The position numbers and the translations under genes were made by a program. From Haloarcula marina (GTDB taxonomy: Archaea; Halobacteriota; Halobacteria; Halobacteriales; Haloarculaceae), in the NCBI RefSeq assembly GCF_024218775.1, contig NZ_CP100405.1, forward strand, positions 248,001 through 312,000: 64,000 nucleotides of DNA, written 5' to 3'. The notes beneath the pieces are model-generated. The model did no database searches. It was given only the letters and a program-made list of their open reading frames with translations, and was not told where the DNA came from. How positions within the stretch are numbered: the stretch's first letter is position 1; each line of letters opens with the position of its first letter. Below, piece by piece: positions 4,058 through 42,976 of the stretch.

Positions 4058-5293
4058 TTAGTAGTTCCCGGTGGAGACGATGGGCGGCGCGTCGTGTGGA
4101 CCGTACGGCGCGTCGTCTAAGTACTCGCCCGCTGGCTCGAAGTAGTCGGCCAGCGACGCGGCAGCCTCCTTCCGGAGGACGGTGGCCGGGTTCTCGCCTT
4201 GGAGATACTCGAGGGCCTGCCCGGCCGCGTTGAGGTTGTACTCCGCGGCCTTCTCACGGCGGGCCGCGTACAATTCGACTTCATCGCGGGCGACAGCGTC
4301 GGTTTTCGCACGGTAAGCGACGGCGATGGCCGACGCCGCCTCGTCGGCGTCCGCGACCCCAGAGTTCATCCCGCGCGCACCGAAGGGCGCGAGGAGGTGG
4401 GCCGCTTCCCCGGCGAGTAACACGCGCCGGTGGTCGTCGACGAACGTGTCGGCCATGACCTGCAGGAACTTGTAACTGGAGACCCACGACAGGTTATCGG
4501 CGTACGCGTCACCCATCACTGCGGTGACGAACTCTCGCATCTTCTCGTCGGTGACCAGTTCGTCCGGGTCGTCGCCCTCGATACACTGGATGTCGAGTCG
4601 CCAGCCGCCGGTAAAGGGTACGAGCATCACGTTTCGGCCGCCGACCTCGGGGGCGTCGTAGTGGAACAAGCGTTCGAGGGGCCACTGCTCGTCCTCGTCG
4701 TCGAGTTCGTCCACGTCGGCGATGATGAAGGAGTTCTCGGACTGGTCGCCCTCGAATGACGCGCCGATTTCTTTGCGAACGGTCGACCCGCCGCCGTCTG
4801 CGCCGACGAGATACGGGGTCTCCCACTCCCGTCCGTCGGCCGTCTCGACGTGGACGCCGTCGGCCGTCGACTCTACGGTCTCGACGGCGCAGTCCCAGTG
4901 GATATCGATGCCCGCCTCGTCGATGGCCTCGTGCATGAACTCCTCGGTGCGAACCTGCGGAACGCTAGTGAAGTGGGGGAACTTCCCGTCGCCGCCGGGG
5001 TTGTCGTACGTCCGTTTGAACACTTCTTTCCCTCGCCAGCAGGTCCGTCGCGTCGGCCAGACCAGTCCCTCCTCGACGAGGTTCTCGCCGAGTCCCGGAT
5101 GGACTCGTTCGAGCGTGTGGAGTGTCGTCCCGTGGACGTAGATGGCGCGGCTCCCGGACCGGTCGCGGTCTTCCGATTCCGCTTCGAGGATGGTCGCTGG
5201 CACGCCGCGTGCGTTCAGTGCAAGTGCCGTGGTCATCCCGACCGGGCCCGCGCCGGCAATCAACACCGGTCGTTCGGTATCAGTGGTACTCAT
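4058..5293 (-). CDS. FAD-dependent aromatic-type monooxygenase (FAD_binding_3)
   Basis: 411 residues. The dinucleotide fold starts at residue 10 with GAGPVGMTTALALNARG. The DG motif is at about residue 170 (LVGADGGGSTVRKEIG). The second FAD motif is VLLAGEAAHLLAPFGARGMN at about 300, with Glu in place of the usual Asp (GE for GD). This is the class A flavin hydroxylase fold used on phenolic acids and on aryl-CoA esters. It has a plausible promoter (AT-rich aataattatgag about 30 bp upstream). The likely role is ring hydroxylation feeding the gentisate genes 10-15 kb away, but the substrate is inferred only from context; polyketide-type or quinone hydroxylases share the fold. Confidence 0.85.
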   Translation of the reverse strand: MSTTDTERPVLIAGAGPVGMTTALALNARGVPATILEAESEDRDRSGSRAIYVHGTTLHTLERVHPGLGENLVEEGLVWPTRRTCWRGKEVFKRTYDNPGGDGKFPHFTSVPQVRTEEFMHEAIDEAGIDIHWDCAVETVESTADGVHVETADGREWETPYLVGADGGGSTVRKEIGASFEGDQSENSFIIADVDELDDEDEQWPLERLFHYDAPEVGGRNVMLVPFTGGWRLDIQCIEGDDPDELVTDEKMREFVTAVMGDAYADNLSWVSSYKFLQVMADTFVDDHRRVLLAGEAAHLLAPFGARGMNSGVADADEAASAIAVAYRAKTDAVARDEVELYAARREKAAEYNLNAAGQALEYLQGENPATVLRKEAAASLADYFEPAGEYLDDAPYGPHDAPPIVSTGNY

Positions 5294-17271: not shown

Positions 17272-17289
17272 TTGAGCCAGTTGGCTCAA
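17272..17289. promoter_or_regulatory. 18-bp perfect palindrome between divergent livG and acyl-CoA synthetase genes
   Basis: Arms ttgagcca and tggctcaa are perfect inverted repeats around a 2-bp centre (gt). The site lies 67 bp before the livG start and 10 bp before the GTG of the synthetase gene, so a bound dimer could block the synthetase promoter directly. Because it is palindromic, upstream reading frames of both genes begin with the same residues, a trap for start calling. Confidence 0.6.
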
Positions 17290-17298
17290 CTAACGGCC

Positions 17299-18675
17299 GT
17301 GACTCTCAGACAGATGTTCGAACCGTCGGCCGTGGCCGTCGTCGGCGCCTCGAAGACGGAGGGAAAAATCGGCTACGAGGCGATGGCGAACGCGAGCGAG
17401 TTCGACGGTGCAGTCTATCCCGTCAACCCGTCCAGCGACGGGGAGTTATTCGGCGCGTCGTTCGTCGACTCGGTGACCGATATCGACGACGACGTTGACC
17501 TCGCGCTCTGTTGCGTTCCGGGGCCGGCGACGCCGGACGTACTCGAAGAGTGCGGCGAGGCCGGCATCGGCGCGGCCGTCATCTACGCCGGTGGCTTCGC
17601 CGAGGCAGGACCGGAGGGCGAGGAGTTACAGGCGGCGGTCGTCGAGACGGCCGACGAGTACGGCATCTCCCTGCTCGGCCCGAACACGAGCGGGTTCGTC
17701 GTCCCCGCGACCGACCTCCTGTGTTCGTTCGCCAGCGGCGCTGAGAAGGTCCCTCCCGGGAACACCGCCGTCATCGCCCAGAGCGGAGGCGTCGCACACG
17801 TACTGGCGTTCCAGTCCCGTCGACAGGGGCGCGGCGTCTCGGCGATGGTGGGCCTCGGCAACCGCGCGAACGTCGGATTCACCGAGACAATCGAGTATTT
17901 CGACGCCGACGACCGGACCGACGCAATCGTCCTCCACGTCGAAGGAACCGACGACGGCCGTGGTCTCCTCGAAGCGTGCCGCGCCAGCGACACGCCGGTC
18001 GTCGCCTACAAGGTGGGCCAGTCGGACGTGGGCGAGTTCGCCGAGTCACACACCGGGGCCCTCACCGGTGACCACGAACTGTACACGGCCGGATTCGCCC
18101 AGTACGGTGTGCCGACGGTGGACGCGACGGACGACCTCCTCGATGCCGCCGCGGCGCTCGGCGACTCACCGGAACCGGACGGCCCGAACGTCGGCGTCGT
18201 TACCGCTCAGGCCGGGCCGGGCATCATCATCACCGACCGTATCCAGCGCGCCGGTGGCCGACTCCCCGAGTTGACCCGGGAGACGCGGGACCGAATCGAC
18301 GACGTCCTGCCGGGCCTCACCTACACCGGCAATCCGGTGGACACGGGTCGGCCGATGCCGGAGTTCGGTGACGTGGTCACCGCCGTCGCCGAGGACGACA
18401 CCGTCGACATCGTTCTCGTCTACGAACTGTTCGAGCAGGCGCTGGGGTTCCCCGTCGAGGCGCTCGACGGACTCGCCGAGCGCGTGGACAAACCGGTGCT
18501 GTTCGCCACCGACGGTATCGAAGAGGACATGGCCGAGGACGTGGCGGCGTTGTCGGACGTAGGCGTCCCCCTGTTCGAGACGCCGGAGCGGGCCGCCGAC
18601 GCCGCGGCCGTCCTCGCTCGCTACGCCGAGATGCACACTCTCGCGGGGGCCGGGGAGGTGGTCGCCGATGAGTGA
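17299..18675 (+). CDS. ADP-forming acyl-CoA synthetase alpha subunit
   Basis: 458 residues from GTG (VTLRQMFEPSAVAVVGAS). The CoA-binding domain is followed by two succinyl-CoA-synthetase-like domains. The phosphohistidine motif SHTGALTG and the upstream HVEGTDDG with its conserved Glu are intact. It pairs with the ATP-grasp beta subunit encoded next, overlapping by 8 bp. The complex converts acyl- or aryl-CoA, ADP and phosphate to free acid and ATP. The start is set by alignment with the paralogue at 5875; an earlier in-frame ATG lies inside the palindrome. Confidence 0.92.
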   Translation: MTLRQMFEPSAVAVVGASKTEGKIGYEAMANASEFDGAVYPVNPSSDGELFGASFVDSVTDIDDDVDLALCCVPGPATPDVLEECGEAGIGAAVIYAGGFAEAGPEGEELQAAVVETADEYGISLLGPNTSGFVVPATDLLCSFASGAEKVPPGNTAVIAQSGGVAHVLAFQSRRQGRGVSAMVGLGNRANVGFTETIEYFDADDRTDAIVLHVEGTDDGRGLLEACRASDTPVVAYKVGQSDVGEFAESHTGALTGDHELYTAGFAQYGVPTVDATDDLLDAAAALGDSPEPDGPNVGVVTAQAGPGIIITDRIQRAGGRLPELTRETRDRIDDVLPGLTYTGNPVDTGRPMPEFGDVVTAVAEDDTVDIVLVYELFEQALGFPVEALDGLAERVDKPVLFATDGIEEDMAEDVAALSDVGVPLFETPERAADAAAVLARYAEMHTLAGAGEVVADE

Positions 18676-19399
18676 GGCCGACGACCCCATTGCCGCCGCT
18701 CGGGCGGACGGGAGACGGACGTTGACCGAAGCGGAGGGGAAGCGACTCCTCGCGGACGCGGGCGTGGAGACACCGGCCTTCGCAGTCTGTTCGACCGCCG
18801 ACGAGGCCGTCGAGGCGGCCGCGGACATCGGGTATCCGGTCGTCGTGAAGGTGTCGTCGCCGTCGGTCACCCACAAGAGCGAGTGGGCCGACGGGGCGGG
18901 TGTCGTCGTCGGCGTCGAGTCGGCCGAGGGCGTGCGTGACGCGGCGGACGGAGTCTTCGAGGCGGCCGCCGAGCAGGGAATCGACGCGGATGTCCTCGTC
19001 GAAGCGGCCGCGGACGTCGATGCCGGAACGGAGGTCATCGTCGGCGGGTTGCGCGACCCGTCGTTCGGGCCGGTGGTACTGACGGGACTGGGCGGCGTGT
19101 TCACCGAGGTGTTCGAGGACACCAGCCACAGAATCGCACCCATCGACGCCGCCGAGGCGCGGTCGGCTATCGAGGACCTACAGGCCGCACGGTTACTGGA
19201 CGGGTATCGCGGGAGCGACCCGGCCGACGTAGATGCGCTCGCCAACGTGGTGGCGACCGCTGGCGACCTCGTGACCGAGTACCCCATCGCGGAACTGGAC
19301 GTCAACCCGGTGCTTGCGTCGGCCGACGGGGCCGTCGCACTGGACGCACTCGTCGTTTTGGAGGCGGACGCCGAGACGGAGGCGGAGGGTGAGCGATGA
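18668..19399 (+). CDS. ADP-forming acyl-CoA synthetase beta subunit (ATP-grasp)
   Basis: 243 residues. ATP-grasp features: GYPVVVKVSSPSVTHKSEW near residue 55 and GTEVIVGGLRDPSFGPVVLT near 120, then GGVFTEVFED and AELDVNPV at the C-terminus. It begins inside the alpha gene (ATG at 18668) and its stop overlaps the thioesterase start by 4 bp, so the three genes are translationally coupled. It provides the nucleotide site of the synthetase. Confidence 0.92.
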   Translation: MSEADDPIAAARADGRRTLTEAEGKRLLADAGVETPAFAVCSTADEAVEAAADIGYPVVVKVSSPSVTHKSEWADGAGVVVGVESAEGVRDAADGVFEAAAEQGIDADVLVEAAADVDAGTEVIVGGLRDPSFGPVVLTGLGGVFTEVFEDTSHRIAPIDAAEARSAIEDLQAARLLDGYRGSDPADVDALANVVATAGDLVTEYPIAELDVNPVLASADGAVALDALVVLEADAETEAEGER

Positions 19400-19800
19400 G
19401 CTACGAACGCGTCTGGACGGTTCGGTTCTCCGATACCGACCCGTTCGGTATCGCCCACTACCCGCGAATCGTCGACGCCCTCCACGAGACGTCGGACATG
19501 TTCATGGAGGACATCGGCTATCCGTTCTGGGAGATATCGCAGGACCAGGGTTTCGGCCTGCCGCTCGTCGAGATGAACTTCGAGTTCGCGTCACCTGTCG
19601 AGGCCGGTGACGAGGTGACCATCGCGTTGACTCCCGACGTTGGCGACCGGAGCGTACGATTCGAGTACACCGCGACCTGCGAGGGAACCGTCGCCTTCGA
19701 AGGGTACGAACAGCGGGTCTGTGCCGAACACGGCGGCGGCGGTGCCATCGACGTGCCGGACGGGATACGAGATGCGATGGCTGCCTACGCTGTGGAGTGA
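19396..19800 (+). CDS. 4HBT-type hot-dog acyl-CoA thioesterase
   Basis: 134 residues. The 4-hydroxybenzoyl-CoA thioesterase signature is present: VRFSDTDPFGIAHYPRIVDA with the catalytic Asp in FSDTDPFG, then EMNFEFASPVEAGDEV. It would hydrolyse an acyl- or aryl-CoA. ATGA overlap with the synthetase beta gene shows they form one operon. In a gentisate route through CoA esters, this enzyme could release gentisate from gentisyl-CoA; general acyl-CoA hydrolysis is the alternative. Confidence 0.88.
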   Translation: MSYERVWTVRFSDTDPFGIAHYPRIVDALHETSDMFMEDIGYPFWEISQDQGFGLPLVEMNFEFASPVEAGDEVTIALTPDVGDRSVRFEYTATCEGTVAFEGYEQRVCAEHGGGGAIDVPDGIRDAMAAYAVE

Positions 19801-20041: not shown

Positions 20042-20199
20042 CCCAGAGAAAACGACGTGCCGTGCGACGCGGACGCCTGAGTTTCTCTATACGGAAATAG
20101 CCGCGCGGCCGAAAACGCCGTTATGAGCGTTTTCAAGCCCGCTCTACGGGGTCTGTCCAGTACACTTATGATGGTGGTGTGCTAACGTGTAGATACACT

Positions 20200-21300
20200 A
20201 TGGCCCAGACAGAGCCAGAGGATCAGGAGTTGGAAGAGCAACTCGAGTTGAGCACAGATACACGGAATATCCTCGAGGAGCACAACCTCCGTCCGCTGTG
20301 GGAGGTCGAAGACGACTTCGGGAACACCATCGACGACCTCGAAGCGGACATCTGGAAGTGGGAGGACATCCAGGCCGCTATCGACGGCGTCGAAGACGAC
20401 GTTCCGATAGCCGACCTGCCGCCGGGCTTCCAGCGCCGCGTGGCCGTCCCCATCAACGCCTCGTTCGGGAACGCCATCTCGAACACGATTTACGTCGGCG
20501 TCCAGACCGTCTCGCCGGGCGAGACGGCCCCCTCGCATCGACACGGTGCGAACGCACTTCGGTTCACCATCGACGGGAGCGAGGACATGAAAACCGTGGT
20601 CGCGGGCGAGGAGTTCCCGATGAAGGACAACGACCTCATCACCACGCCCCAGTGGGAGTGGCACGACCACGTCAACGACTCCGACGAGACGGCCGCGTGG
20701 CTCGACGTGCTGGACCTGCCGCTGGTGCTGGATTCGCTGAATGCCCGCAACACGTTCGAGAACCACGAACTCGAACGCCAACCGGTCACGAAGACACAGG
20801 GCTACTGGGACTCCCAGTACGGTCGCGGCCGCCCGGAGGACGAAACGAAAGACGGCAGCATCCCCGGCCCCTTCGAGGGCATCCGCGAGGCCACGCCGCC
20901 GTACCGCTTCGGGTGGGCAGAGATGGTCGAGTCGCTCCACCAGCGGGCCGAGAACGACGAGGCGGACCCATACGACGGGTACAGCCTCTCGTACGTCAAC
21001 CCGGCCACCGGGTCGCCACCGCTGTTCCCGACGATGTCGTTCCGCGCGCAGTTGCTACAGGAGGCGACCGACCCGCACTTCCACAACGCGACGGAAGTCT
21101 ACTTCGTGGTCGAGGGCGAGGGCGCGACCCACGTCGACGACGAGGCCTTGGAGTGGAGCGAACGCGACATCTTCGTGGTCCCGCCGGATGCGACACACCA
21201 CCACGAACCAGACGGTGACGAGGCCATCCTGCTGGGGATGACCGACCGGCCGGTGTTCGAGGCGATGAACTTCTACGCCGAGGCCAGCCCTTCGTCGTAA
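20200..21300 (+). CDS. Gentisate 1,2-dioxygenase-like bicupin
   Basis: 366 residues with two cupin domains. The iron-binding pattern of the N-terminal cupin is SHRHGANALRF (HxH) near residue 110 and QWEWHDHVND near 150, both hallmarks of gentisate dioxygenases. The C-terminal cupin shows DPHFHNATEVYFVVEGEG. The enzyme opens the ring of gentisate (2,5-dihydroxybenzoate) between C1 and C2 to give maleylpyruvate, using Fe(II) and O2. 1-Hydroxy-2-naphthoate or salicylate dioxygenases share the fold. The ATG at 20200 follows TATA-like acttatg at about 36 bp. FAH-family hydrolase nearby supports gentisate. Confidence 0.88.
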   Translation: MAQTEPEDQELEEQLELSTDTRNILEEHNLRPLWEVEDDFGNTIDDLEADIWKWEDIQAAIDGVEDDVPIADLPPGFQRRVAVPINASFGNAISNTIYVGVQTVSPGETAPSHRHGANALRFTIDGSEDMKTVVAGEEFPMKDNDLITTPQWEWHDHVNDSDETAAWLDVLDLPLVLDSLNARNTFENHELERQPVTKTQGYWDSQYGRGRPEDETKDGSIPGPFEGIREATPPYRFGWAEMVESLHQRAENDEADPYDGYSLSYVNPATGSPPLFPTMSFRAQLLQEATDPHFHNATEVYFVVEGEGATHVDDEALEWSERDIFVVPPDATHHHEPDGDEAILLGMTDRPVFEAMNFYAEASPSS

Positions 21301-25500: not shown

Positions 25501-26379
25501 TTACTCCTGTCCGCCCTTCTGCACGTCGGCCTCGGCGTAGCTCACGTCTCGTTCGGTGACGTCGACGGTCATCGAGCCGATAGACTCGATTTCGGCGTCG
25601 ATGGTGTCGCCGTCCGAGAGTTCGCTGACGCCCTCGGGCGTCCCCGTCGTGATGACGTCACCGGTCTCCAGCGTGGCCCCGAGAGAGGCGTACTGGACGA
25701 TGTCGGCGCAGGTGTACACCATGTCGCCGGTGTTCTCGTACTGGCGGCGCTCGCCGTTGAGTTGCAGTTCCATCTGGAGGTCCTGCGGGTCGTCGATTTC
25801 GTCGGCGGTGGTCACGCACGGCCCGATGACGGTGAACGTGTCGTAGGACTTCCGGTTCGAGCGGTCCTGGTCGCCCCGCAGCGAGATGTCCAGCAGGATG
25901 GTGTACCCGAAGATGTGGTCCCACGCCTCCTCGGCGGGCACGTCCTTGATGTCGCCTTCCATGACGAAGGCCAGTTCTATCTCGTGGTCCGTCCGGCGGT
26001 CGGTGAAGGGCAGTTCGATGCCGTTGTCGGGCCCGACGACGCTGGAGGGTGCTTTCAGGAAGTAGCCTTTGTCCTTGATGGAGAACCACTCGTCAGTGGT
26101 GATATCGCGGTCCGACAGCGCCTCCTCGATGTGGTTCTCGTAGTTCAGCGGCGCGGCGATGACCTTCCCCGGCCGACCGACCGGCGACCCGATTTCGACG
26201 TCCGTTACGTCGTGGTCCGGGTCGGCGTCGGCGTACTCGCTGGCGTCGTAGTCGCCTTCCATGTACTCGACGAGCGGTTCCTCGCCGTCGAGGTCGAGGC
26301 GGTCGTTCAGCGCGATGACGCCGGTGCCGTCGTCTGTGAGCAGGCCTAACTGGTCGTCGTCGTAGCGGACGAATCGCAT
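25501..26379 (-). CDS. FAH-family hydrolase (fumarylpyruvate/maleylpyruvate-type)
   Basis: 292 residues of the fumarylacetoacetase C-terminal fold. Signature elements: GKVIAAPLNYENHIEEA, then DHEIELAFVMEG with the metal-binding acidic cluster, and GDVITTGTPEGV. In gentisate degradation a member of this family hydrolyses fumarylpyruvate to fumarate and pyruvate; other members act as isomerase/decarboxylases. The nearby gentisate-dioxygenase-like gene makes the first role likely. No separate maleylpyruvate isomerase is seen. TATA-like cttttatcag lies about 25 bp before the ATG. Confidence 0.88.
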   Translation of the reverse strand: MRFVRYDDDQLGLLTDDGTGVIALNDRLDLDGEEPLVEYMEGDYDASEYADADPDHDVTDVEIGSPVGRPGKVIAAPLNYENHIEEALSDRDITTDEWFSIKDKGYFLKAPSSVVGPDNGIELPFTDRRTDHEIELAFVMEGDIKDVPAEEAWDHIFGYTILLDISLRGDQDRSNRKSYDTFTVIGPCVTTADEIDDPQDLQMELQLNGERRQYENTGDMVYTCADIVQYASLGATLETGDVITTGTPEGVSELSDGDTIDAEIESIGSMTVDVTERDVSYAEADVQKGGQE

Positions 26380-31900: not shown

Positions 31901-32006
31901 GCTCTACGGACCCGCCAACGTAGTCGTAGTCCGCTCGCTCGTCGCTCGCCGTTGGGGCGAGTTGGACACCGCCGTCTGTGGCGGCGTCGCTATCGTCGTC
32001 GCGCAT
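28935..32006 (-). CDS. Giant FAD-linked D-lactate/glycolate dehydrogenase fused to 4Fe-4S/CCG module
   Basis: 1023 residues. Residues 60-290 are a PCMH-type FAD-binding domain (IPILPRGGGTSLAGQTVNEA, GGAIGNNSTGAHS); 300-560 the oxidase C-terminal domain (FYAHAGPGVLHVRPL). Residues 600-700 carry Fe-S ligands (CHGCGGCRTQ and CIGCKGCAHDCPSEVD). The end holds two CCG-type regions (HGHCHQKA, DSGCCGMAGSFGYE). Similar fusions oxidise D-2-hydroxyacids and pass electrons to quinone. The start at 32006 (MRDDDSDA) is preferred over an upstream GTG-type start. It is separated by 86 bp from the aldehyde dehydrogenase gene. Its substrate here (D-lactate, D-malate or other) is unknown. Confidence 0.9.
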   Translation of the reverse strand: MRDDDSDAATDGGVQLAPTASDERADYDYVGGSVERPGLVSDLEARADGEVRFDTYTRQLYATDASAYEVTPIGVVFPTSTADVARVVTYCAEREIPILPRGGGTSLAGQTVNEAVVLDFTRHMDSVRSLNPEDREARVQAGTVLADLNDRAAQYDLTFGPDPAAGNRSAIGGAIGNNSTGAHSLVYEKTDHYIEECEVVLADGTVTTFGEVPVEELRERADSETDDLEARIAAGVVSLLDDHAEEVAERYPELKRNVSGYNLDRLIAEYEGEYGKAGTVNLARLLAGSEGTLAVVTEATVSLEPIPETKAVALLTYDSVVEAVSDVQHVLDHGPAAVELIDDVLIDLASDTTEFADVAAKLPDRTRAALLVEFYAEDDDHGREQVAGLLADRVPDGAGDETDADHYAFDALEAYDADERTEIWKLRKSGLPILLGRTSDAKHISFLEDCAIPPEHLPEFVSEFQDVLEENGTFASFYAHAGPGVLHVRPLVNTKSQADLDAMENIGEAVTDLVVEFGGSVSGEHGDGRARTQWNRKLYGERLWEAFRDLKTAFDPDWLLNPGQVCGDVSLTENLRFDPEYEFNAGFDSALSWDNENGMQGMVELCHGCGGCRTQQSEGGVMCPTFRAADEEITATRGRANMLRQAMSGDLPDDPTDDEFVSEVMDLCIGCKGCAHDCPSEVDMAKLKVEVEHAHHQEHGASLRERVFANVDTLARVGSALAPLSNLGPKLPGARAVMEKTLGIARERSLPTFERESLQDWFAARGPKVSAAEADRKAVLFPDTYTNFSHPAVGKAAVRVLEAANVHVDVADVTDSGRPAYSKGFVDATRETAREAVESLAPRVADGWDVVLVEPSDAVMLQSDYLDLLSGDEVETLAANSYGVCEYLDTFRLDENLAVDAPGRSLAYHGHCHQKATKKDHHAVGVLRRTGYEVDPLDSGCCGMAGSFGYEAEHHAMSMTIGETLEEQVSESEARAVVAPGASCRTQLTDLAVDTDGAFAGVDRDGPPTPIEAVDAALTAGDR

Positions 32007-32105
32007 GTACGTCGACCTGTGTGAACCAGTCACTTAATCCCCCCGTTGTCGGCACGCTGTCAGCGGCAGTAGAGCTTTTACAGCGGCCACCCTTCTCACG
32101 ATACC

Positions 32106-33872: not shown

Positions 33873-35090
33873 ATGGGCAAGTTTGACAGTGAACATGGTC
33901 GGCGGTCGTTCCTAAAAGTCGCTGGCGCAACAGGTCTCAGTAGTCTCGCTGGCTGCACCGCCTTAAACGGTGGCGGCGGCTCGGACGCGGTCACTATCGC
34001 GGCCGCCGTTCCGGAGACCGGACGGCTGGCCCCGGTCGGCAACGAAATGCTCGCGGGCTACGAACTCGGGGTGGAGAAACTCAACGAGCGGGACAACGTC
34101 GACCAGGAGGTCGAACTCATCGTCAGAGACGACGAAAGCGACCCGACGGTGCTCCGCCAGCAACTCCAACAGATCACCAGCAACAACGACGTCGACATGA
34201 TCTGGGGGAGTTTCTCCAGCCCGCTCGTCATGTCGGCGTCGGCGTACGCAGAGAACGAGGGGTTGCCGTTCCTCGCGGTCGCCACCTGTTACCAAGAGCC
34301 CCTCGTCTCCGGGGAGAAAGAGTGGACGTATACGCCGTTTCCGAAAACGCGCGATGTCACGCGTGCGACGACAGGGATGCTCGAATTCATCCCGGAGGAC
34401 GACCGACCGCAGGCGGTCGGTATCTGGGAGGAGAACTCCGGCTGGGGTGCCGAGATGGCTGAAGCTTGGGACACGAAGCTCTCGGACGCGGGCTACGACA
34501 TCACGATGCGGGAGACGTACAATCCCGGCAACGAGGACTTCTCGACGCTCATCTCGCAGGCCGAGAACGCAGGGGTCGAGGCGCTCGTCGCGTGCCCGCA
34601 GCCGCCGGACGGCATCACCGCGATGAACCAACTGAACAACTCCGGCTACATGCCCGATTTCATCGAGTTCGTACGCGCCGCAGACCCGCAGGCGTGGTGG
34701 TCGGCGCTCGGCGAGCAGGGGAACTACGTCACGATGTGCCCGGGCTGGGCACCCGGGATGACCGGAAACGGCAACGAGGAGTTCCTGAGTACGTATGCCG
34801 ACCGGAACGACGGCGGGACGCCGCGCGTGATGGTCGGCGTCGGCTACAACCTCGCACAGACCACCGAGCAGGCGCTGGCCGCCGCCGAGAACAGCGGCCC
34901 CGAGAGCGTGCGGGCGGCGCTCGACGAGACGGAGTTCAGCACGGTCATCGGCGACTTCAGCTTCGACCAGTACGGGATGCCCAAGCAGGGTCAACTCTCG
35001 GCCGCGAGCGCGCAGTGGTGGGACGGCGAGCAACGCCTCGTCTACCCGCAAACCGAGCAGTCCGCTGACCTACAGTTCCCCATCGAGTGA
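33873..35090 (+). CDS. Second LivJ-type substrate-binding lipoprotein
   Basis: 405 residues. Tat lipoprotein signal RRSFLKVAGATGLSSLAGC at residues 10-28. The rest is a close paralogue of the protein at 21415 (shared VPETGRLAPVGNEMLAGYEL-like opening, QITSNNDVDMIWGSFSS, CPGWAPGMTGNGN). It has no permease next to it and probably shares LivHMGF, extending the ligand range. It precedes the side-chain beta-oxidation operon, which suggests the ligand is an aryl-alkanoate or fatty acid. Confidence 0.9.
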   Translation: MGKFDSEHGRRSFLKVAGATGLSSLAGCTALNGGGGSDAVTIAAAVPETGRLAPVGNEMLAGYELGVEKLNERDNVDQEVELIVRDDESDPTVLRQQLQQITSNNDVDMIWGSFSSPLVMSASAYAENEGLPFLAVATCYQEPLVSGEKEWTYTPFPKTRDVTRATTGMLEFIPEDDRPQAVGIWEENSGWGAEMAEAWDTKLSDAGYDITMRETYNPGNEDFSTLISQAENAGVEALVACPQPPDGITAMNQLNNSGYMPDFIEFVRAADPQAWWSALGEQGNYVTMCPGWAPGMTGNGNEEFLSTYADRNDGGTPRVMVGVGYNLAQTTEQALAAAENSGPESVRAALDETEFSTVIGDFSFDQYGMPKQGQLSAASAQWWDGEQRLVYPQTEQSADLQFPIE

Positions 35091-35270
35091 CTGCGGGACG
35101 TACCGACAGGACGGAAGCCGGTCACCGTCCGTGGGTTCGGGGTGGCGAGTCGCAGTCGCTGTGGTCGGCTGTTCGGCTGTCCGAGCGAGTCTTCTAGTTA
35201 AGAGAATTGGGTCGATTAGCAAACATTGTAACCAATATTTTAAGTTGAGCGGCACCATTGTGTGATAGTG

Positions 35271-37211
35271 ATGAGAGAGAGTGACATATCTGAGGTGGCC
35301 GTGCTCGGCGCGGGGAGCATGGGGCACGGTATCGCCGAACTCGCCGCTATTGCGAGCTACGACGTGGTACTTCGGGACATCGAAGCGAATCTCGTCGACG
35401 ATGGCCTCGAACAGATCGAGTGGAGCCTCGGCAAACTCGAAGAGAAGGGCAAAATCGACGAACCGGCCGACGACGTGCGCGCCCGTATCGTTGGCGAGAC
35501 GGACCTCGAAACCGCCGTCGCCGACGCGGACCTCGTCATCGAGGCGATTCCCGAAAACCTCGACCTGAAGCGCGAGACGTTCGCCGAAGTCGACGAGTAC
35601 GCGCCTGACCACGCCATCTTGGCGTCGAACACGTCCGGCCTGAGCATCACCGAAATCGGGGCCGCAACCGACCGCCCCGAACAGGTCGCTGGCGCGCACT
35701 TCTTCAATCCGCCGGTGAAGATGGACCTCGTCGAGGTCGTCCACGGCGAACGCACCAGCGAGGGTACGCTGGCTACCGTCCACGAGTTTGTGGCCGACCT
35801 CGGGAAGCGCGCTATCGACGTCAAGCGAGACGTTCACGGGTTCATCGTCAACAACGTCATGCTGCCGTTCATCGAGGAGGGTGCGTGGATGCTCGCAGAC
35901 GGCAGCGCTGACATCCGCCAAGCGGACGCCGCCATGGTGTACACGCGCGGCTACCCGATGGGGCCGTTCGAACTCGCTGACTACACTGGCATCGACATCG
36001 CGTATCACTTCCGCGAAGACACCGACCTCGACTCTCCGCCTACCATCGCCGAGAAGGTCGAGGCAGACGACCTCGGGAAGAAGACCGGGCGCGGGTTCTA
36101 CGACTGGGAGGCTGACGGCCCCGACTACGAACCGGGCGACGGCGAGGGCTTCGACACGCTCCGCGTGGAGGCCCGGATGGTCAACGAGGCCGCGCGCCTC
36201 GTCGGCAACGACGTCGCAACGCCGGACGACATCGACCTCGGAAGCAGACTGGGCGCGCGCTTCCCGGAGGGCGTCTGCCGACTCGGCGACCAGATCGGTC
36301 TCGACAGCGTCCTCGACAAACTCCGGACGCTCCACGAGGAGACGGGCGCACAGCGGTACGCGCCTGCCGACTACCTCGTCGAACTCGTCGAGGCGGGCGA
36401 GACAGGCGTCGACGCCGGTGTGGGCTTTCACGAGTATCGCGGCGACGGTCCCTACCAGTACATCAATAAGTCGCTCGACGACCGCGGCGTCCTCGAAATC
36501 GAATTCGACCGTCCGGAGCGGCTGAACGCGTTCTCCGAGACGATGTTCGGCGAAGTCGAGGCCGCTCTCGGGAACGCCGACACCGACGCGGTGTCCTGCG
36601 TCGTGTTCTCTGGTGCTGGCGAGGACGCGTTCAGTTCCGGCGCGGACATCACCGGCTTCATGACCTCCGAACCGACCGAACTGATGGATGTCGACGAGAC
36701 TATCCGCGCCATCGACGAGTTCGAGCGCCCCACTGTCGCCCGCATCGACGGCTTTTGTCTGGGTGCTGGCTTCGAAATCGCGCTGGCCTGTGACCTCCGC
36801 ATTGCCACCGAGGACTCCGTGTTCGGCTCGCCGGAGATAAACCTCGGACTGATTCCGGGCGGAGGCGGCACTCAGCGCCTCACGCGAATCGTCGGGGAGG
36901 GGCGTGCGAAGGAACTCGTCTTCCGCGGCGAGCAGATTTCCGCCGAGCGCGCCGAGGACTGGGGGCTTCTCAATCGCGCCGTTCCGGAGTCCGATTTCGA
37001 GGAGACGGTCGCACAGTTCGTCGACGACCTTGCGAACGGCCCACGGACAGCACTGAAGGTCGCCAAGCGGGTCATCGACGACGGACAGGACGCCAGCCTC
37101 GACACTGGACTGGACGTCGAGAGTCAGGGCTTCGGCCTGCTGACGACGACGGACGACATGGTCGAGGGCGTGACGGCGTTCAGGGACGACCGCGAACCGG
37201 AGTTCGAGTGA
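35271..37211 (+). CDS. Bifunctional 3-hydroxyacyl-CoA dehydrogenase/enoyl-CoA hydratase
   Basis: 646 residues. N-terminal dehydrogenase: VAVLGAGSMGHGIAELAA (NAD fold, residues 8-25), HFFNPPVKMDLVEVV, GFIVNNVMLPFI. Second half from about 395 is a crotonase: RIDGFCLGAGFEIALACDLR with oxyanion-hole Gly and FGSPEINLGLIPGGGGTQRL with the catalytic Glu. Order (dehydrogenase first) is the archaeal arrangement, reverse of bacterial FadB. It catalyses the two middle steps of beta-oxidation. The ATG at 35271 follows TATA-like ttttaag by about 30 bp. The stop overlaps the thiolase ATG. Confidence 0.93.
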   Translation: MRESDISEVAVLGAGSMGHGIAELAAIASYDVVLRDIEANLVDDGLEQIEWSLGKLEEKGKIDEPADDVRARIVGETDLETAVADADLVIEAIPENLDLKRETFAEVDEYAPDHAILASNTSGLSITEIGAATDRPEQVAGAHFFNPPVKMDLVEVVHGERTSEGTLATVHEFVADLGKRAIDVKRDVHGFIVNNVMLPFIEEGAWMLADGSADIRQADAAMVYTRGYPMGPFELADYTGIDIAYHFREDTDLDSPPTIAEKVEADDLGKKTGRGFYDWEADGPDYEPGDGEGFDTLRVEARMVNEAARLVGNDVATPDDIDLGSRLGARFPEGVCRLGDQIGLDSVLDKLRTLHEETGAQRYAPADYLVELVEAGETGVDAGVGFHEYRGDGPYQYINKSLDDRGVLEIEFDRPERLNAFSETMFGEVEAALGNADTDAVSCVVFSGAGEDAFSSGADITGFMTSEPTELMDVDETIRAIDEFERPTVARIDGFCLGAGFEIALACDLRIATEDSVFGSPEINLGLIPGGGGTQRLTRIVGEGRAKELVFRGEQISAERAEDWGLLNRAVPESDFEETVAQFVDDLANGPRTALKVAKRVIDDGQDASLDTGLDVESQGFGLLTTTDDMVEGVTAFRDDREPEFE

Positions 37212-38404
37212 TGACCCGGACTGCTGCAATCGTCGGCGGCGGTCACGCCGACTGGGGGCAACGCGAGGCCACGTGGAAAGACCTCACACAGGAGGCCGGA
37301 AAAGCCGCCTTCGACGACGTAGACGGAATCACCCCCAGCGATGTCGAAGGACTGTTCGTCGGCGCGGTGCAACCCGAGCGATTCGCGTTCCAGAGTCATG
37401 TCGCCCCGTTGGCCGCGGAGCTGCTCGGTATCGACGTCACGAAGATGATCTCACGCACCGAACTGGCGTGCGCGAGCGGGCAGGCGGCACTCCGGTACGC
37501 GTGGCTCGCTATTGCCAGCGGCCAGTTGGACGTTGCACTTGTGCTTGGCGTCGAGAAGATGAATCTCGGTGATGACTATATCGAGGAGACGCAGGCGGGC
37601 ATGACGAACGTGCTTGACCGCGAATTCGACGGCGTCAACGGCCTGAACGCCCCCTCGTTCTTCTCGATGTTCGCCCAGCGCCACATGCGTGAGTACGGCA
37701 CCACCCGGGAACAGCTCGCAAAGGTGAGTGTAAAGAACAAGCGCCACGCCGCGAACAACCCCTACGCTCAGTTCCGGCAGGAAGTCAGCGTCGACGACGT
37801 ACTGGACTCCTATCCGGTCGCGCCGCCGCTGTGCCTGTTGGACTGCAGCGGCCTCACGGACGGTGCCGCTGGTCTGCTGCTCGTCAGCGAGGAGAAGGCA
37901 CGCGAAATCACAGACACCGCGGCGTACGTCACGGGCAGCGGCCAGGCCTGCATGGCGAGCAACTCCATCAACAACCTGCCATCGATGTCCGCGTGGCCGC
38001 AGGCTACCGTCGCCGCAGAGGAAGCATACGACCAGGCTGGCATCGATGACCCGGTGGCCGAACTGGACGTCGCCGAGATTCACGACTGCTTCTCCATCAG
38101 CGAGATCATCGAGTACGAGGACCTCGGCTGGGTCGAGAAAGGTGAGGGCGGCCAGTTCATCGAAGACGGCCGCAGCGAACTCGACGGCGACATCGCCGTC
38201 AACCCCCGTGGGGGGCTCTTAGGCTGTGGTCACCCGCTCGGCGCGACCGGCGTCTCGCAGGCGCTGGAAGTGTACAAGCAGTTTGCGGGTAAGGTCGAAT
38301 CCAGCCGTCAGGTGCCCGACAGCCCGGAGACCGGACTCATCCACAACCTCAGCGGTAGCGGGAGCGTACACAGCGTGATGACGCTCGCGAGGGATCCACA
38401 ATGA
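37211..38404 (+). CDS. SCP2-type thiolase (acetyl-CoA acyltransferase)
   Basis: 397 residues. Nucleophile Cys in ELACASGQAALRYAW near residue 85; His region EIHDCFSISE; second Cys in GGLLGCGHPLGATGVSQ. It cleaves 3-ketoacyl-CoA to acetyl-CoA and a shortened acyl-CoA. It is paired with the DUF35 protein encoded next (ATGA overlap), a partner that non-thiolase-superfamily members in archaea commonly need. Translationally coupled to the upstream dehydrogenase/hydratase. Confidence 0.92.
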   Translation: MTRTAAIVGGGHADWGQREATWKDLTQEAGKAAFDDVDGITPSDVEGLFVGAVQPERFAFQSHVAPLAAELLGIDVTKMISRTELACASGQAALRYAWLAIASGQLDVALVLGVEKMNLGDDYIEETQAGMTNVLDREFDGVNGLNAPSFFSMFAQRHMREYGTTREQLAKVSVKNKRHAANNPYAQFRQEVSVDDVLDSYPVAPPLCLLDCSGLTDGAAGLLLVSEEKAREITDTAAYVTGSGQACMASNSINNLPSMSAWPQATVAAEEAYDQAGIDDPVAELDVAEIHDCFSISEIIEYEDLGWVEKGEGGQFIEDGRSELDGDIAVNPRGGLLGCGHPLGATGVSQALEVYKQFAGKVESSRQVPDSPETGLIHNLSGSGSVHSVMTLARDPQ

Positions 38405-38922
38405 CTGACGACACCGACCACACCGACGCACGCACCGATACCGAACCGCCACGGAAGACGGTCTCCGTGCCGGACACTATCGAGATGCCGCGTCTGATGG
38501 ACTTCTACGATCTGCAGGACGCCGACCACACGAGGATTCACGAGTTCTACGACCGCCTCCGTGACGGGTCGCTATCTACGACGGAGTGCCAGGACTGCGG
38601 CGAGCGTCACTTTCCGCCGCGTGTCGTGTGTCCGGAGTGTACGAGCGACAACCTAGAATACGTCTCGTTGCCTCACGACGGCACGCTGTTCGCGTTCTCC
38701 GCCGTTCGGGGGAGCGGCCCGGTCGGGATGGATACGCCGTTCGTCACGGGCGTCGTGGACTTGGACGGCGTCGACATCCAGTTGTCGGCACGCATCGACG
38801 ACGTCGACTACGACGACCTCTCCATCGGCGACCCCGTAACGCTGCAAGTCGTGGACATCGACGGCCCGACTGACCAAGACAGGGTGTTTTATCGATTCAC
38901 ATTGCGGAGTGACACAGCATGA
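38401..38922 (+). CDS. DUF35 zinc-ribbon/OB-fold protein, thiolase partner
   Basis: 173 residues. The zinc ribbon is CQDCGERHFPPRVVCPEC (two CxxC pairs), followed by an OB-fold (LFAFSAVRGSGPVG, QLSARIDDVD). Such proteins bind CoA substrates and assist archaeal thiolases and HMG-CoA synthases. It overlaps both neighbours by ATGA and so is made in fixed ratio to the thiolase and the CoA ligase. Confidence 0.9.
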   Translation: MTDDTDHTDARTDTEPPRKTVSVPDTIEMPRLMDFYDLQDADHTRIHEFYDRLRDGSLSTTECQDCGERHFPPRVVCPECTSDNLEYVSLPHDGTLFAFSAVRGSGPVGMDTPFVTGVVDLDGVDIQLSARIDDVDYDDLSIGDPVTLQVVDIDGPTDQDRVFYRFTLRSDTA

Positions 38923-40559
38923 CGATGGACTACGACCTCACGATAACGAAGTTCCTGGAACGGGCCCGCGACCTCTTCGACCACAAGGAGATCGTCACCG
39001 CGCTCCCGGACGGGAGCACCCATCGATACACGTACGGCGACGCCTACGAGCGCATCAGTCAACTCGCGCATGCTCTGGACGACTACGGGATGGCGCCCGG
39101 CGACCGTTCGGGCGTGATGGCGGTCAACCACTACCGTCACTACGAACTCTACTTCGGACCGTCCTGTAGCGCACGCAGTATTCACATGGTGAACCATCGA
39201 CTGCCGGAGCACCATCTCGTCGAAATCATCGAGGAGGCCGAAGACCGACTGATGTTCGTCGACCCGCAGTTCGTGGAGGTTCTCGAACCTATCGCGGACG
39301 ACCTCGATACCGTCGAGCAGTATGTCATTCTCGGCGACCGAAACGACGTGCCGGATACGTCGCTGGAGCCGGTCACCGACTACGAATCGTTCATCGACGG
39401 CTACGATACCGACTACGATTGGCCCGCCATCGACGAGGACACCGAGAGCGCGCTCTGCTACACGTCCGGGACCACCGGGCTGCCAAAGGGCGTTCAATAC
39501 ACGCATCGTGGTCAGTTCCTGCACACGCTGATGCACAGCCACGTCGACGTGTTCGGCGTCAGTGAGACCGACACCGTGATGCCGGTGGTGCCGATGTTCC
39601 ACGTCAACGGCTGGGGGCTCCCGTACACGACGACGTTTACGGGCGCGAAAATCGTACTACCGGGCCAGCGGACCGATCCGGATGAACTCATCTCCTGTAT
39701 AACCGAGGAAGCAGTCACCGTCGCGGCCGCGGTTCCCACCGTCTGGATGGAGGTCGACCGCATCATCGAGGATTCCAGCGACCTCGGGCCAGACGCGCTG
39801 GACTCGCTTCAGGACGTACTCATTGGCGGGAGTTCCCCGCCGGCGTCGCTCATCCGGAAGTTCGATGAGGTCTACGACGCGCCCATCGGTCAAGGATACG
39901 GGATGACGGAGGCTTCCCCCCATCTTGCGAACACCCTGATGACGACGGAGATGCAGAAACTGCCCGAGGAGGAACAGGACCGCCTCCGGATGAAAGCGGG
40001 CATACCGGCACCGGGTGTTCAGATTCGACTCCGCGACGAGGACGGGCAGCCGGTGCCCCAGGACGGCGAGACGCCCGGCGAAGTGCAGGCGCGGGCACCG
40101 TGGCTCGCTGGCGAGTACTACCAGCGTCCGAACGCGACGAGGGAGTCGTTCACACAGGACGGGTGGTTCCAGAGCGGTGACGTCGCCACCATCGACGAGT
40201 ACGGCAACCTCGATGTGGTCGACCGCCTCGACGATGTCATCAAGAGCGGCGGCGAGTGGATCTCCAGCATCGAACTGGAGAACACGATTATCGGCCACGA
40301 CGATATTGAGGAAGCCACGGTCATCGGCGTCCCCCACGAGAAGTGGCAAGAGCGTCCGGTCGCGTACGTCGTCGCAGCGGACGATGTGACTGCCGACGGC
40401 CTCCGCGACTACTTGCTCGAGGAATTCCCGAAGTGGTGGCTACCGGACCACTTCGAGTTCGTCGACGAGGTACCGAAGACGACCACTGGAAAGTACAACA
40501 AGAAACGCCTCGTCGAGCGCTTCGAGGAGGAGTACGGATCGCTGCCTATCGAGGAATAA
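38919..40559 (+). CDS. AMP-forming acyl-CoA synthetase (medium/long chain type)
   Basis: 546 residues. Motifs: CYTSGTTGLPKGVQYTHRG near 185, GQGYGMTEASPHLA near 325, DRLDDVIKSGGEWISSIELE near 435 and the catalytic Lys in KTTTGKYNKKRL near the end. It is a fatty-acyl-CoA-ligase-like enzyme that would start beta-oxidation of the acid imported by the nearby binding protein. Last gene of the four-gene coupled operon 35271-40559. Substrate may be phenylpropanoid or fatty acid. Confidence 0.92.
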   Translation: MTMDYDLTITKFLERARDLFDHKEIVTALPDGSTHRYTYGDAYERISQLAHALDDYGMAPGDRSGVMAVNHYRHYELYFGPSCSARSIHMVNHRLPEHHLVEIIEEAEDRLMFVDPQFVEVLEPIADDLDTVEQYVILGDRNDVPDTSLEPVTDYESFIDGYDTDYDWPAIDEDTESALCYTSGTTGLPKGVQYTHRGQFLHTLMHSHVDVFGVSETDTVMPVVPMFHVNGWGLPYTTTFTGAKIVLPGQRTDPDELISCITEEAVTVAAAVPTVWMEVDRIIEDSSDLGPDALDSLQDVLIGGSSPPASLIRKFDEVYDAPIGQGYGMTEASPHLANTLMTTEMQKLPEEEQDRLRMKAGIPAPGVQIRLRDEDGQPVPQDGETPGEVQARAPWLAGEYYQRPNATRESFTQDGWFQSGDVATIDEYGNLDVVDRLDDVIKSGGEWISSIELENTIIGHDDIEEATVIGVPHEKWQERPVAYVVAADDVTADGLRDYLLEEFPKWWLPDHFEFVDEVPKTTTGKYNKKRLVERFEEEYGSLPIEE

Positions 40560-40584: not shown

Positions 40585-41112
40585 CTAGAACCGATATTCG
40601 GTATCGCTGTCGAGGTAATCGAAGAGGCCGGGACTGGCGCCGAACTCAAGGATATTCGTCATCACGCTTGTGCGAACGTTTAGCACCGTCTTGCCGTGGT
40701 TCTTGTAGAACTCGTGGAGCCACCGCTCACCGTGTTCGCGTGTCGGGAACAGCATGACAGACTTCCACTGGTACTCGCCGTCCGACAGGAAATACATGAG
40801 TGTGTGGTCGTCGTCGCGGATGTGCTCCATCGTTTCGCGCCATGTGTCCGCGAAGTACTCGGGGTTGAACTTGAATTCGAATAGTTCGAATAGGAAATAC
40901 TCCTCGTTGGGAACGATGGCTTCCCGAAACACACTTGCCTCACGCATGTTCCGGATAGATTCGTTGACTGTGACATAGGAGACGTCAATATCGTACTCGT
41001 CGTCGAGAATATCGGCGAGATCCCGGGAGGAGACGCTGGGGTTTTTCGCAAGCTCTCGGAGAATGTAGACGTCACGGTCCTTGAATTCGTACGACGGTGT
41101 GTCGTGTGCCAT
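40585..41112 (-). CDS. Winged-helix transcription regulator, haloarchaeal type
   Basis: 175 residues. The N-terminal winged helix is DVYILRELAKNPSVSSRDLADIL with recognition part YVTVNESIRNMREASVF. The C-terminal half, rich in Phe and Tyr (EYFLFELFEFKFNPEYF), is probably a ligand or dimer domain. It converges on the beta-oxidation operon with 25 bp between stops and is a good candidate for its regulator. The start at 41112 is chosen over an ATG-like codon two residues upstream. Confidence 0.8.
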   Translation of the reverse strand: MAHDTPSYEFKDRDVYILRELAKNPSVSSRDLADILDDEYDIDVSYVTVNESIRNMREASVFREAIVPNEEYFLFELFEFKFNPEYFADTWRETMEHIRDDDHTLMYFLSDGEYQWKSVMLFPTREHGERWLHEFYKNHGKTVLNVRTSVMTNILEFGASPGLFDYLDSDTEYRF

Positions 41113-41199
41113 ACACACGTCTATCCGGGTAACAATGTTAAGATTCAGGATTCGGAGAACGACGATTGGTAGGTCTTTGGGGTCGAGCGAACCGAATTT

Positions 41200-42441
41200 T
41201 TATCGGTCGATTTCTTCCAGCGCCTCCGTCGCGACATCGCCCAATTCCCCTGCCTCGATATGCGAGTACCGCTCTCGCACCATCTCCTCCGAGTTGTCGA
41301 GATAGCGGGCCGCGACTGTGTATCCAAAGGCTCGAACGAGCACTTCACCCATCCCTCGTCGACCGCCGTGCGGTGCGAGATAGTCGTGTTTCGGATGGTC
41401 GATATCAATCTCCCCGTCGTCTGAGAGTCGTTGGAGAATCGACCGTGCCCCATCGGTCGTGACCGACGGCGGTTGAATATCCTCAGCAAGCGCCAGCAAG
41501 AGGTCGCGGGCGAACTCGTCACGTCGCTCGTCGATTTCTTCGGTTTGTCGGCCTCGGTCGGCCAGTTCGTCCTGAACGAGCGTCGCGAGCATCCGCTGGT
41601 CGAACGTGGGAAACACCGGCCACCGATCCGATGGTGGATCCACGAGTTTTCGGTAGCTACGGAGCGGTGTAATCACTGGATCCGGGAGACTCGCGGCGTC
41701 CCACTGTTGTTTCTTCCTGTATACGTCCATACTCCCGTCTTCCAACGAAATCTCCTCCCACCGAACCCCACGCCTGCGCGGGTCGTTCGGGTCCCGGAGC
41801 AGTTCGCCGACGCGAACGGCTGTGTACGCGATAACGAACACGAGGGCCCGGTCTCGCGCCGCCTTCACCGCCTCGTAGCGCGCTCGCTGCCTGTCGATCT
41901 GGTCAGTATCCTCTGGGAGTGTCGTGTACGCCTCGATGGCCGCGCGGGCCCGTTCGTCGACGAAGCGGGTGAGCGCGTGGCGCTGTTCGGAGGTCCAGGC
42001 CTGCTGGTCGCCGGGTTTGCGCCCGTCGTCTTCAGGGAGTGGTGCCGTCGCACTCGCCCGCTGGGCGAAGTGGGCTTCCAGGTAGCCCTCGTTGACACAC
42101 CAGCCACACCACGCAGAGATATAGCGGTAATAGGTTTGTACCGTGTTCTGCTTGAGGCCGCGGTCGCCGCCGAGGTGGCGGGCGTACTCTCGAAACACGC
42201 GTTCGTCGAGGTCCTCGAAGGCCGGTTCTCGGTCACTGTCGTCCGGGACAATCCCGGTCCAGTCGTCGCGACCACGGTCACCGGCGGCCCACTCGGCGAA
42301 TCGCTCGAGTTCGCGCGCCGCGTTCCGTCGGTAGTTCCCGCCGTCGCCACCGCGGCCTTTCCCCTTGTCCTGGAGGTAGCGCTCGAACGACTCGGAGAGT
42401 GAGGCCAACGGCGTCCGTTCAGTCGGTGTATTCCGGTCCAT
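41200..42441 (-). CDS. Tyrosine recombinase/integrase (XerC/D-like)
   Basis: 413 residues. A SAM-like N-terminal DNA-binding domain (residues 15-130; FERYLQDKGKGRGG) precedes the catalytic domain. Active-site residues visible: Arg in AYTAVRVGELLRD, His-x-x-Arg in APHGGRRGMGEVL, and the nucleophile Tyr in MVRERYSHIEAGEL. Complete length suggests activity. It sits at the change from the catabolic block to the accessory region and next to a HEPN/nucleotidyltransferase pair, so it may be the integrase of an element covering part of the right half. No attachment repeat was identified. Confidence 0.9.
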   Translation of the reverse strand: MDRNTPTERTPLASLSESFERYLQDKGKGRGGDGGNYRRNAARELERFAEWAAGDRGRDDWTGIVPDDSDREPAFEDLDERVFREYARHLGGDRGLKQNTVQTYYRYISAWCGWCVNEGYLEAHFAQRASATAPLPEDDGRKPGDQQAWTSEQRHALTRFVDERARAAIEAYTTLPEDTDQIDRQRARYEAVKAARDRALVFVIAYTAVRVGELLRDPNDPRRRGVRWEEISLEDGSMDVYRKKQQWDAASLPDPVITPLRSYRKLVDPPSDRWPVFPTFDQRMLATLVQDELADRGRQTEEIDERRDEFARDLLLALAEDIQPPSVTTDGARSILQRLSDDGEIDIDHPKHDYLAPHGGRRGMGEVLVRAFGYTVAARYLDNSEEMVRERYSHIEAGELGDVATEALEEIDR

Positions 42442-42466
42442 AGTGCTCTTGATGTGTCCAATATAG

Positions 42467-42976
42467 TCAGTCACACAGACAGACGCCGCCTTCCCGGATC
42501 TGGCTTACGGCGAACTGATGGACGGCACTGGCGAGGTCGGTCATTGCTTCCGCCTGTTCTTGGGTTGGACGCCCGCCGCCGTAATAACTCTCTGTCCGGT
42601 TCTCGCTGTAGAGATCCTTCATCGCCTCTGCAGTCTCCCGCTCAAACAGCCCGATCTGGTGGGCACGCTCGTAGCTAAACTGGTGGTCCTGAAAGTCCTG
42701 AAGCGTATCGTTCGTCATCGCGAGCGCATACGCCTCAATCGACCGTTCGATAGCGCCGAAACAGACCTCGATAACGGCCGTATAGTACCCATCCTGTGAC
42801 TGGAGAGTGTCAACGACTTCAAGGAGACGACACGCTTTCGTTAGTTGTGTCTTCCAATCTTCATCGGCACTAATTCCGTCCTCAAACGCTGTCCGACCGC
42901 GTCCGACCATCTCGAAGGCATCCTGTGCGCGGTCGAGTGCTGCGAGCACAGCGGTCGGGTCCGAGCCATTACTCAT
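42467..42976 (-). CDS. HEPN-domain protein (partner of nucleotidyltransferase)
   Basis: 169 residues, all-helical, with CFGAIERSIEAYALAM and a terminal helix after YSENRTESYYGGGRPT. The RTESYYGG turn lies where HEPN RNases have R-x4-6-H, but here Tyr replaces His, so RNase activity may be lost. It overlaps the upstream nucleotidyltransferase gene by 8 bp. HEPN-MNT pairs form toxin-antitoxin modules in which the nucleotidyltransferase modifies the HEPN protein. The start ATG at 42976 lies within the partner's 3' end. Confidence 0.8.
   Translation of the reverse strand: MSNGSDPTAVLAALDRAQDAFEMVGRGRTAFEDGISADEDWKTQLTKACRLLEVVDTLQSQDGYYTAVIEVCFGAIERSIEAYALAMTNDTLQDFQDHQFSYERAHQIGLFERETAEAMKDLYSENRTESYYGGGRPTQEQAEAMTDLASAVHQFAVSQIREGGVCLCD

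Follow-up and report, generated by a model that had tools for sequence, protein, structure and literature searches.

A four-gene operon of Haloarcula marina that probably carries out side-chain beta-oxidation of aryl-acrylic acids for a gentisate route

We analysed a 64,000-nucleotide stretch of the Haloarcula marina genome (contig NZ_CP100405.1, positions 248,001 to 312,000; hereafter the window), in which four overlapping genes encode a fused 3-hydroxyacyl-coenzyme A (CoA) dehydrogenase/enoyl-CoA hydratase, a thiolase, a DUF35 protein and an acyl-CoA ligase (Table 1). We propose, with a probability of roughly 0.6, that this operon performs one round of CoA-dependent side-chain beta-oxidation of aryl-acrylic acids, most likely hydroxycinnamates, and thereby feeds a CoA-level gentisate route. 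The ligase would convert an aryl-acrylic acid such as coumarate to its cinnamoyl-type CoA ester, the fusion protein would hydrate the existing double bond and then oxidise the 3-hydroxyl, and the thiolase with DUF35 would release acetyl-CoA and leave hydroxybenzoyl-CoA. A flavin adenine dinucleotide (FAD) monooxygenase encoded elsewhere in the window would hydroxylate the ring as the CoA ester, giving gentisyl-CoA; a 4HBT-type thioesterase would free the gentisate, and a dioxygenase would open its ring. On this reading, the four-gene operon would combine familiar chemistry with an arrangement that is new for archaea.

The connection to gentisate is seen in the distribution of these genes among 391 haloarchaeal genomes, 48 of which carry the thiolase. 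A gene like that for the dioxygenase (E <= 1e-120) was present in 46 of the 48 thiolase genomes and in 62 genomes overall, compared with 16 of the 343 lacking the thiolase. The FAD monooxygenase (E <= 1e-90) was likewise found in 46 of the 48 (63 of 391 overall), and a thioesterase match (E <= 1e-30) in 43 (58 of 391); 43 thiolase genomes held all three. In 29 of the 48, the dioxygenase or monooxygenase gene lies no more than 30 kb from the thiolase gene. A Haloarcula marina plasmid, NZ_CP100408.1, encodes the dioxygenase and thiolase at 99.2% and 99.5% identity, about 17 kb apart as in the window, and the named relatives of the window are haloarchaea. Because the dioxygenase also occurs in 16 genomes that lack the thiolase, the operon is evidently an optional feeder. 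It seems to serve the gentisate pathway as an accessory and not to belong to general fat metabolism, and this strong link bears out a preliminary description of the window, in which it was suggested that the operon could feed the gentisate genes.

The same description had listed four coupled genes with overlaps of 1 to 4 bp, and we recovered all four frames and their domains in the open reading frame (ORF) and Pfam analyses, with the overlaps as claimed. At the first junction (fusion/thiolase, GTGA/TGATG) the overlap is 4 bp, or 1 bp if the ATG three bases on is used. The second and third junctions (thiolase/DUF35 and DUF35/ligase) each read ATGA with a 4-bp overlap, and an in-frame ATG six bases further on is an alternative start for the ligase that would give no overlap. 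All ten of the close loci L057-L066 offer a start with the 4-bp overlap at both the second and the third junction, and all ten offer one with 4 or 1 bp at the first; since the overlaps are kept throughout, we do not attribute them to chance. Among the 53 other loci (54 thiolase matches minus the window's own), all four genes are adjacent on one strand in 33, including L067, where only 20% of the fusion aligned; just the first three are together in 12, and 8 show other arrangements. Locus L109 runs out at the end of its contig. At L068-L072, the thiolase-DUF35 pair (thiolase 81-84% identical to that of the window) occurs near other genes, with no fusion and ligase on the same strand; among the ORFs nearby at L068 is one whose product has an AMP-binding_C_2 domain. 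Thiolase and DUF35 thus seem to travel together as a module.

In the fusion protein the dehydrogenase precedes the hydratase, which is the reverse of the order in FadB/FadJ. Among its PDB relatives, FadJ-type chains match its dehydrogenase part with their C-terminal region, and with 347.6 bits against the FadJ model NF008363 (cut-off 869) it falls outside FadB/FadJ. It carries GFEIALACD and GSPEINLG, including the glutamate of each, as well as AHFFNPP in the dehydrogenase part; we take all three segments to be catalytic. The best solved match of the thiolase is the archaeal acetoacetyl-CoA thiolase 6ESQ, with BbsB (7PXP) fifth, and both of these have DUF35 partners. The window protein combines the nucleophilic cysteine and HDCF of SCP2-type thiolases with an adjacently encoded DUF35 protein that has the zinc-ribbon cysteines; by motif, it is a thiolase. 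The DUF35 protein would act as its CoA-binding partner.

The 4HBT gene overlaps the end of the gene for an ATP-grasp subunit and precedes the dioxygenase gene. Its product has 5WH9, named 4-hydroxybenzoyl-CoA thioesterase, as best solved match; Pfam shows the 4HBT family for the L074 homologue, which is 74% identical, and both the aspartate of DTDPFG and the gentisate-cluster position are present. The gene also formed one cluster when we clustered the neighbours of the operon loci, a procedure in which ORFs overlapping reference hits were left out, an amino-acid composition filter was applied and antisense noise was among the output. In Bacillus halodurans, according to the available text of PMC516016, a gentisyl-CoA thioesterase lies within the gentisate cluster. 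Because the window's thioesterase gene stands beside the dioxygenase gene, ring hydroxylation would take place on the CoA ester. The FAD monooxygenase model has a mean predicted local distance difference test (pLDDT) score of 61.2 with a poor substrate half, and its solved relatives, which are polyketide, rifampin and other oxygenases, do not indicate a substrate.

As products of the operon, the preliminary description had named benzoyl-CoA as well as hydroxybenzoyl-CoA. No PaaA/PaaC (PF05138) match was found in the window genome and no BoxB match in the genome, the positive control for BoxB being weak (it rang below the cut-off, in 1 of 14 control genomes), which makes the BoxB absence a soft one. 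Benzoyl-CoA formed from plain cinnamate would therefore have no recognised next step here, and hydroxycinnamates are thus a better guess than cinnamate. The benzoyl-CoA branch accordingly loses ground, and hydroxybenzoyl-CoA stands as the better product.

Table 1. Features of the window considered in this work, with the basis of each assignment
Feature	Coordinates	Strand	Basis
Fused 3-hydroxyacyl-CoA dehydrogenase (N-terminal)/enoyl-CoA hydratase (C-terminal)	35271..37211	+	Pfam 3HCDH_N, 3HCDH, ECH_1; motifs; PDB relatives
SCP2-type thiolase	37208..38404	+	Pfam; solved relatives; motifs ACASG, HDCF, GHPLGATG
DUF35 protein, zinc ribbon and oligonucleotide/oligosaccharide-binding (OB) fold	38401..38922	+	Pfam zf-ChsH2, OB_ChsH2_C; two CxxC pairs
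Adenosine monophosphate (AMP)-forming acyl-CoA ligase	38919..40559	+	Pfam AMP-binding and C-terminal domain; NCBIfam; solved relatives; motifs
Conserved promoter region	35196..35270	+	Alignment of 11 upstream regions; ATG 35271 directly after
FAD monooxygenase, proposed hydroxybenzoyl-CoA hydroxylase	4058..5293	-	Pfam; co-occurrence
Protein resembling the alpha part of adenosine diphosphate (ADP)-forming acyl-CoA synthetases	17272..18675	+	Pfam; below NCBIfam cut-offs
ATP-grasp subunit, likely partner of the 17272..18675 product	18668..19399	+	Pfam
4HBT-type thioesterase, 134 residues, proposed gentisyl-CoA thioesterase	19396..19800	+	Family; cluster position; solved match
Gentisate 1,2-dioxygenase-like cupin protein	20179..21300	+	Solved matches; below NCBIfam cut-offs
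Fumarylacetoacetate hydrolase family protein, proposed fumarylpyruvate hydrolase	25501..26379	-	Pfam, NCBIfam
Branched-chain-type ATP-binding cassette (ABC) substrate-binding protein (Peripla_BP_6)	33873..35090	+	Pfam; directly upstream of operon
Lrp/AsnC-like winged-helix protein, candidate regulator	40585..41118	-	Convergent to operon; model and fold match

Several points weigh against a hydroxycinnamate operon that serves gentisate degradation. One-sided Fisher tests of the thiolase against the dioxygenase, monooxygenase and thioesterase gave 1e-43, 5e-43 and 9e-39, values that favour the association but are uncorrected for shared ancestry. Two operon genomes (G003 and G128) have neither a dioxygenase nor a monooxygenase match at our thresholds, five have no thioesterase match at E <= 1e-30, and in two of the 43 genomes with such a match (G222 and G380) the identity is only 43-44%. 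The aspartate that binds the substrate in known 4HBT enzymes (available text of PMC516016) is apparently a histidine in the window protein, judging from the alignment of the 5WH9 search. For the dioxygenase, the best NCBIfam model is that of 5-aminosalicylate 1,2-dioxygenase (214.5 bits versus a cut-off of 650), and the gentisate model TIGR02272 is missed as well (207.8 versus 442.1 bits). In its favour, the name gentisate 1,2-dioxygenase is given to six of the seven solved structures that it matches, with the best of them labelled putative; because the TIGR02272 cut-off is missed and the nearest solved relatives are gentisate dioxygenases, we call the protein gentisate-dioxygenase-like. Finally, the ligase passes the cut-off of the NCBIfam long-chain-fatty-acid--CoA ligase subfamily (511.1 versus 476 bits), and its solved matches are led by the fatty-acid ligase 1ULT, which we take to be from Thermus, followed by 6IHK/6IJB (AMP-binding domain protein), presumably methylthiopropionate-type ligases. 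The ligase sequence alone is therefore no argument for an aromatic substrate.

The absence of an acyl-CoA dehydrogenase from the unit, on which the preliminary description had built its idea of substrates that are already unsaturated, was borne out: neither the operon nor the remaining ORFs that were scanned (40 window ORFs) showed such a domain. The genome (3.74 Mb, three contigs) has five PF00441 matches (E <= 0.001), all on its largest contig and none on the contig of 363,878 bases that carries the window. Whether homologous operons also lack the gene has a mixed answer, since a dedicated acyl-CoA dehydrogenase is the fifth gene, directly after the ligase, in 10 of the 53 other loci and the rest have none at that place; some acyl-CoA dehydrogenase match lies within the stretch read in 17 of the 53. 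With the operon-linked dehydrogenase as query, identities of at least 68% were found in 12 of the 391 genomes, each of which also has the thiolase, and in G319 the operon-type gene is about 160 kb from the operon. At E <= 1e-110 and any identity, 315 of the 391 genomes gave a match. The best match in the window genome is 56% identical and belongs to a separate clade (support 98/100), and the 56% level also occurs in genomes without the operon. The same tree supports the operon-linked sequences as one group only weakly (63/83), and it carries long-branch warnings for the four other sequences of the window genome and for L124. Because its best match is at 56% and in another clade, the window genome lacks an operon-type dehydrogenase. 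There are thus two forms of the operon, of which the window genome has the one without a dedicated acyl-CoA dehydrogenase. In the ten loci that have this dehydrogenase, we also observed a MaoC-like hydratase gene (L090:15445-16452 and similar ORFs in the nine others).

A housekeeping acyl-CoA dehydrogenase could nevertheless act in trans, letting the operon take saturated arylpropanoates, and this tempers the reading of an unsaturated substrate, which is otherwise favoured by the unit without the dehydrogenase and by published hydroxycinnamate analogues. It is rather unlikely, in our estimate, that the operon degrades 3-phenylpropionate or its hydroxy forms after one of the five chromosomal dehydrogenases has oxidised them. 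The ten loci with a dehydrogenase after the ligase and the five matches in the window genome speak for this possibility, as does Haloferax sp. D1227, which grows on 3-phenylpropionate and cinnamate via gentisate (available text of PMC4005966), whereas the window genome has no operon-type dehydrogenase and its best match lies in a separate clade, at a level of identity also seen in genomes without the operon.

We consider it improbable that the operon serves ordinary beta-oxidation of fatty acids or branched acids and is no more than a neighbour of aromatic genes. Such an operon would agree with the family name and best solved match of the ligase and with a 45% paralogue of the fusion on the largest contig, but not with the dioxygenase-like gene in 46 of 48 operon genomes versus 16 of 343 without the thiolase, nor with a unit that has no acyl-CoA dehydrogenase. 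The aldolase CtSal has glycine in place of the nucleophilic cysteine and YDCY as its motif, and HDCF and YDCF are given for two related groups, read here as SCP2 thiolases and thiolase-like proteins (available text of PMC12329534). A retro-aldol reading of the pair, in which a hydroxyacyl-CoA would give an aldehyde and acetyl-CoA as with Sal and Ltp2, whose type also has DUF35 partners (same text), is very improbable and was rejected on the motifs, since the window protein has the ACASG cysteine and HDCF instead of the glycine and YDCY or YDHF, and the unit itself encodes a dehydrogenase domain.

Returning to the proposed beta-oxidation of hydroxycinnamates, we tentatively extend it to a haloarchaeal route that would lead from coumarate to gentisate without leaving the CoA-ester level, in which the operon might hand hydroxybenzoyl-CoA straight to the FAD monooxygenase; we are inclined to doubt this extension. 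Gentisyl-CoA is reachable from 2-, 3- or 4-hydroxybenzoyl-CoA, the 4-isomer with an NIH shift. For the para isomer, the monooxygenase would thus have to shift the CoA-carbonyl group to give gentisyl-CoA. If the route were true, a single activation dependent on adenosine triphosphate (ATP) would pay for both side chain and ring. The hydroxybenzoate part of such clusters has reportedly been studied recently. A title on 4-hydroxybenzoate in Archaea with an NIH shift is among the references in the available text of PMC6140281.

As in beta-oxidative phenylpropanoid degradation, the ligase, hydratase, 3-hydroxyacyl-CoA dehydrogenase and thiolase are encoded together in a unit without an acyl-CoA dehydrogenase. 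The hydroxycinnamate pathway HcsA-FoxA-KatA of Aspergillus niger shares with the window a ligase, a multifunctional hydratase/dehydrogenase, a thiolase and thioesterases, and no acyl-CoA dehydrogenase is named in the available text of PMC8140964; it differs in being fungal and predicted peroxisomal, and that text mentions neither an operon nor a gentisate route. The Phd cluster of Corynebacterium glutamicum (Kallscheuer 2016), which acts on phenylpropanoids including hydroxycinnamates, has in common with the window a CoA ligase, a hydratase and a 3-hydroxyacyl-CoA dehydrogenase, again with no acyl-CoA dehydrogenase listed in the available text of PMC5479773. However, its hydratase and dehydrogenase are separate, a 3-oxoacyl-CoA ketohydrolase comes last and protocatechuate lies beyond. 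The archaeal thiolase/DUF35 complex and BbsB are of the same thiolase type with DUF35 but differ in substrates, and the archaeal complex (6ESQ) includes a 3-hydroxy-3-methylglutaryl-CoA (HMG-CoA) synthase, whereas the operon encodes none.

Haloarchaeal growth on cinnamate and phenylpropionate via gentisate was reported in the 1990s (cited in PMC4005966). Haloferax sp. D1227 is, like the source of the window, a haloarchaeon and uses aromatic side-chain acids and a gentisate route, but its side-chain genes are unnamed in the available text of PMC4005966. Nor are side-chain genes in haloarchaea named in the titles and abstract openings listed when the open-access literature was searched for gentisate or haloarchaeal aromatics. 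Among the plasmid matches listed with annotation, the one name given to the thiolase is beta-ketoacyl synthase N-terminal-like domain protein. Together with its dehydrogenase variant, a putative ring route at the CoA level and a putative regulator, the operon provides a set of genes on which the use of lignin-type aromatics in brines can be tested.

Upstream of the operon, AGTTAA and the start ATG at 35271 were present in 11/11 aligned upstream regions, where this ATG is invariant and the GTG at 35262 variable. A AAACAnnGTAACC-like element shows few changes, as does a TATA-like TTTAA some 30 bases upstream of the ATG; a GGTTAAC-like right arm comes next in most of the 11 rows and is less clear in the window. 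A single promoter likely drives the whole four-gene unit. The substrate-binding protein gene directly upstream, which also precedes the operon at L057, L058, L059 and L061, encodes a candidate for binding the operon's substrate, judging from its family and position.

The Lrp-like protein gave no Pfam or NCBIfam match. Its gene occurs at 19 of the 53 other loci (>55% identity, at least 85% coverage), and its model (mean pLDDT 72.7, predicted template modelling (pTM) score 0.49) shows a winged helix and, after it, a domain of beta-alpha-beta-beta-alpha-beta topology. Compared with Lrp/AsnC structures, the model gave a best E of 5.5e-07 and template modelling (TM) scores of 0.40-0.47 at a root-mean-square deviation of about 11, so that the two domains appear to be differently placed. 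On the basis of this model, the protein is a candidate for control of the operon. We rejected an exact operator (ACATTGT or its complement) shared by the operon and the Lrp-like gene: it occurs at both genes in the window and L061, but was found in just 3 of 48 fusion upstream regions and 5 of 20 Lrp-like ones, two of these five lying more than 100 bases from the start.

Elsewhere in the window, the gentisate cluster includes a gene (28935-32033, minus strand) for a large oxidase that is FAD-linked and has Fe-S and CCG domains; it stands beside an aldehyde dehydrogenase gene and a short-chain dehydrogenase/reductase (SDR) gene. Directly beyond the operon and the candidate regulator, a gene at 41200-42474 on the minus strand encodes a protein with a phage-integrase SAM-like domain and possibly marks the edge of an acquired block.

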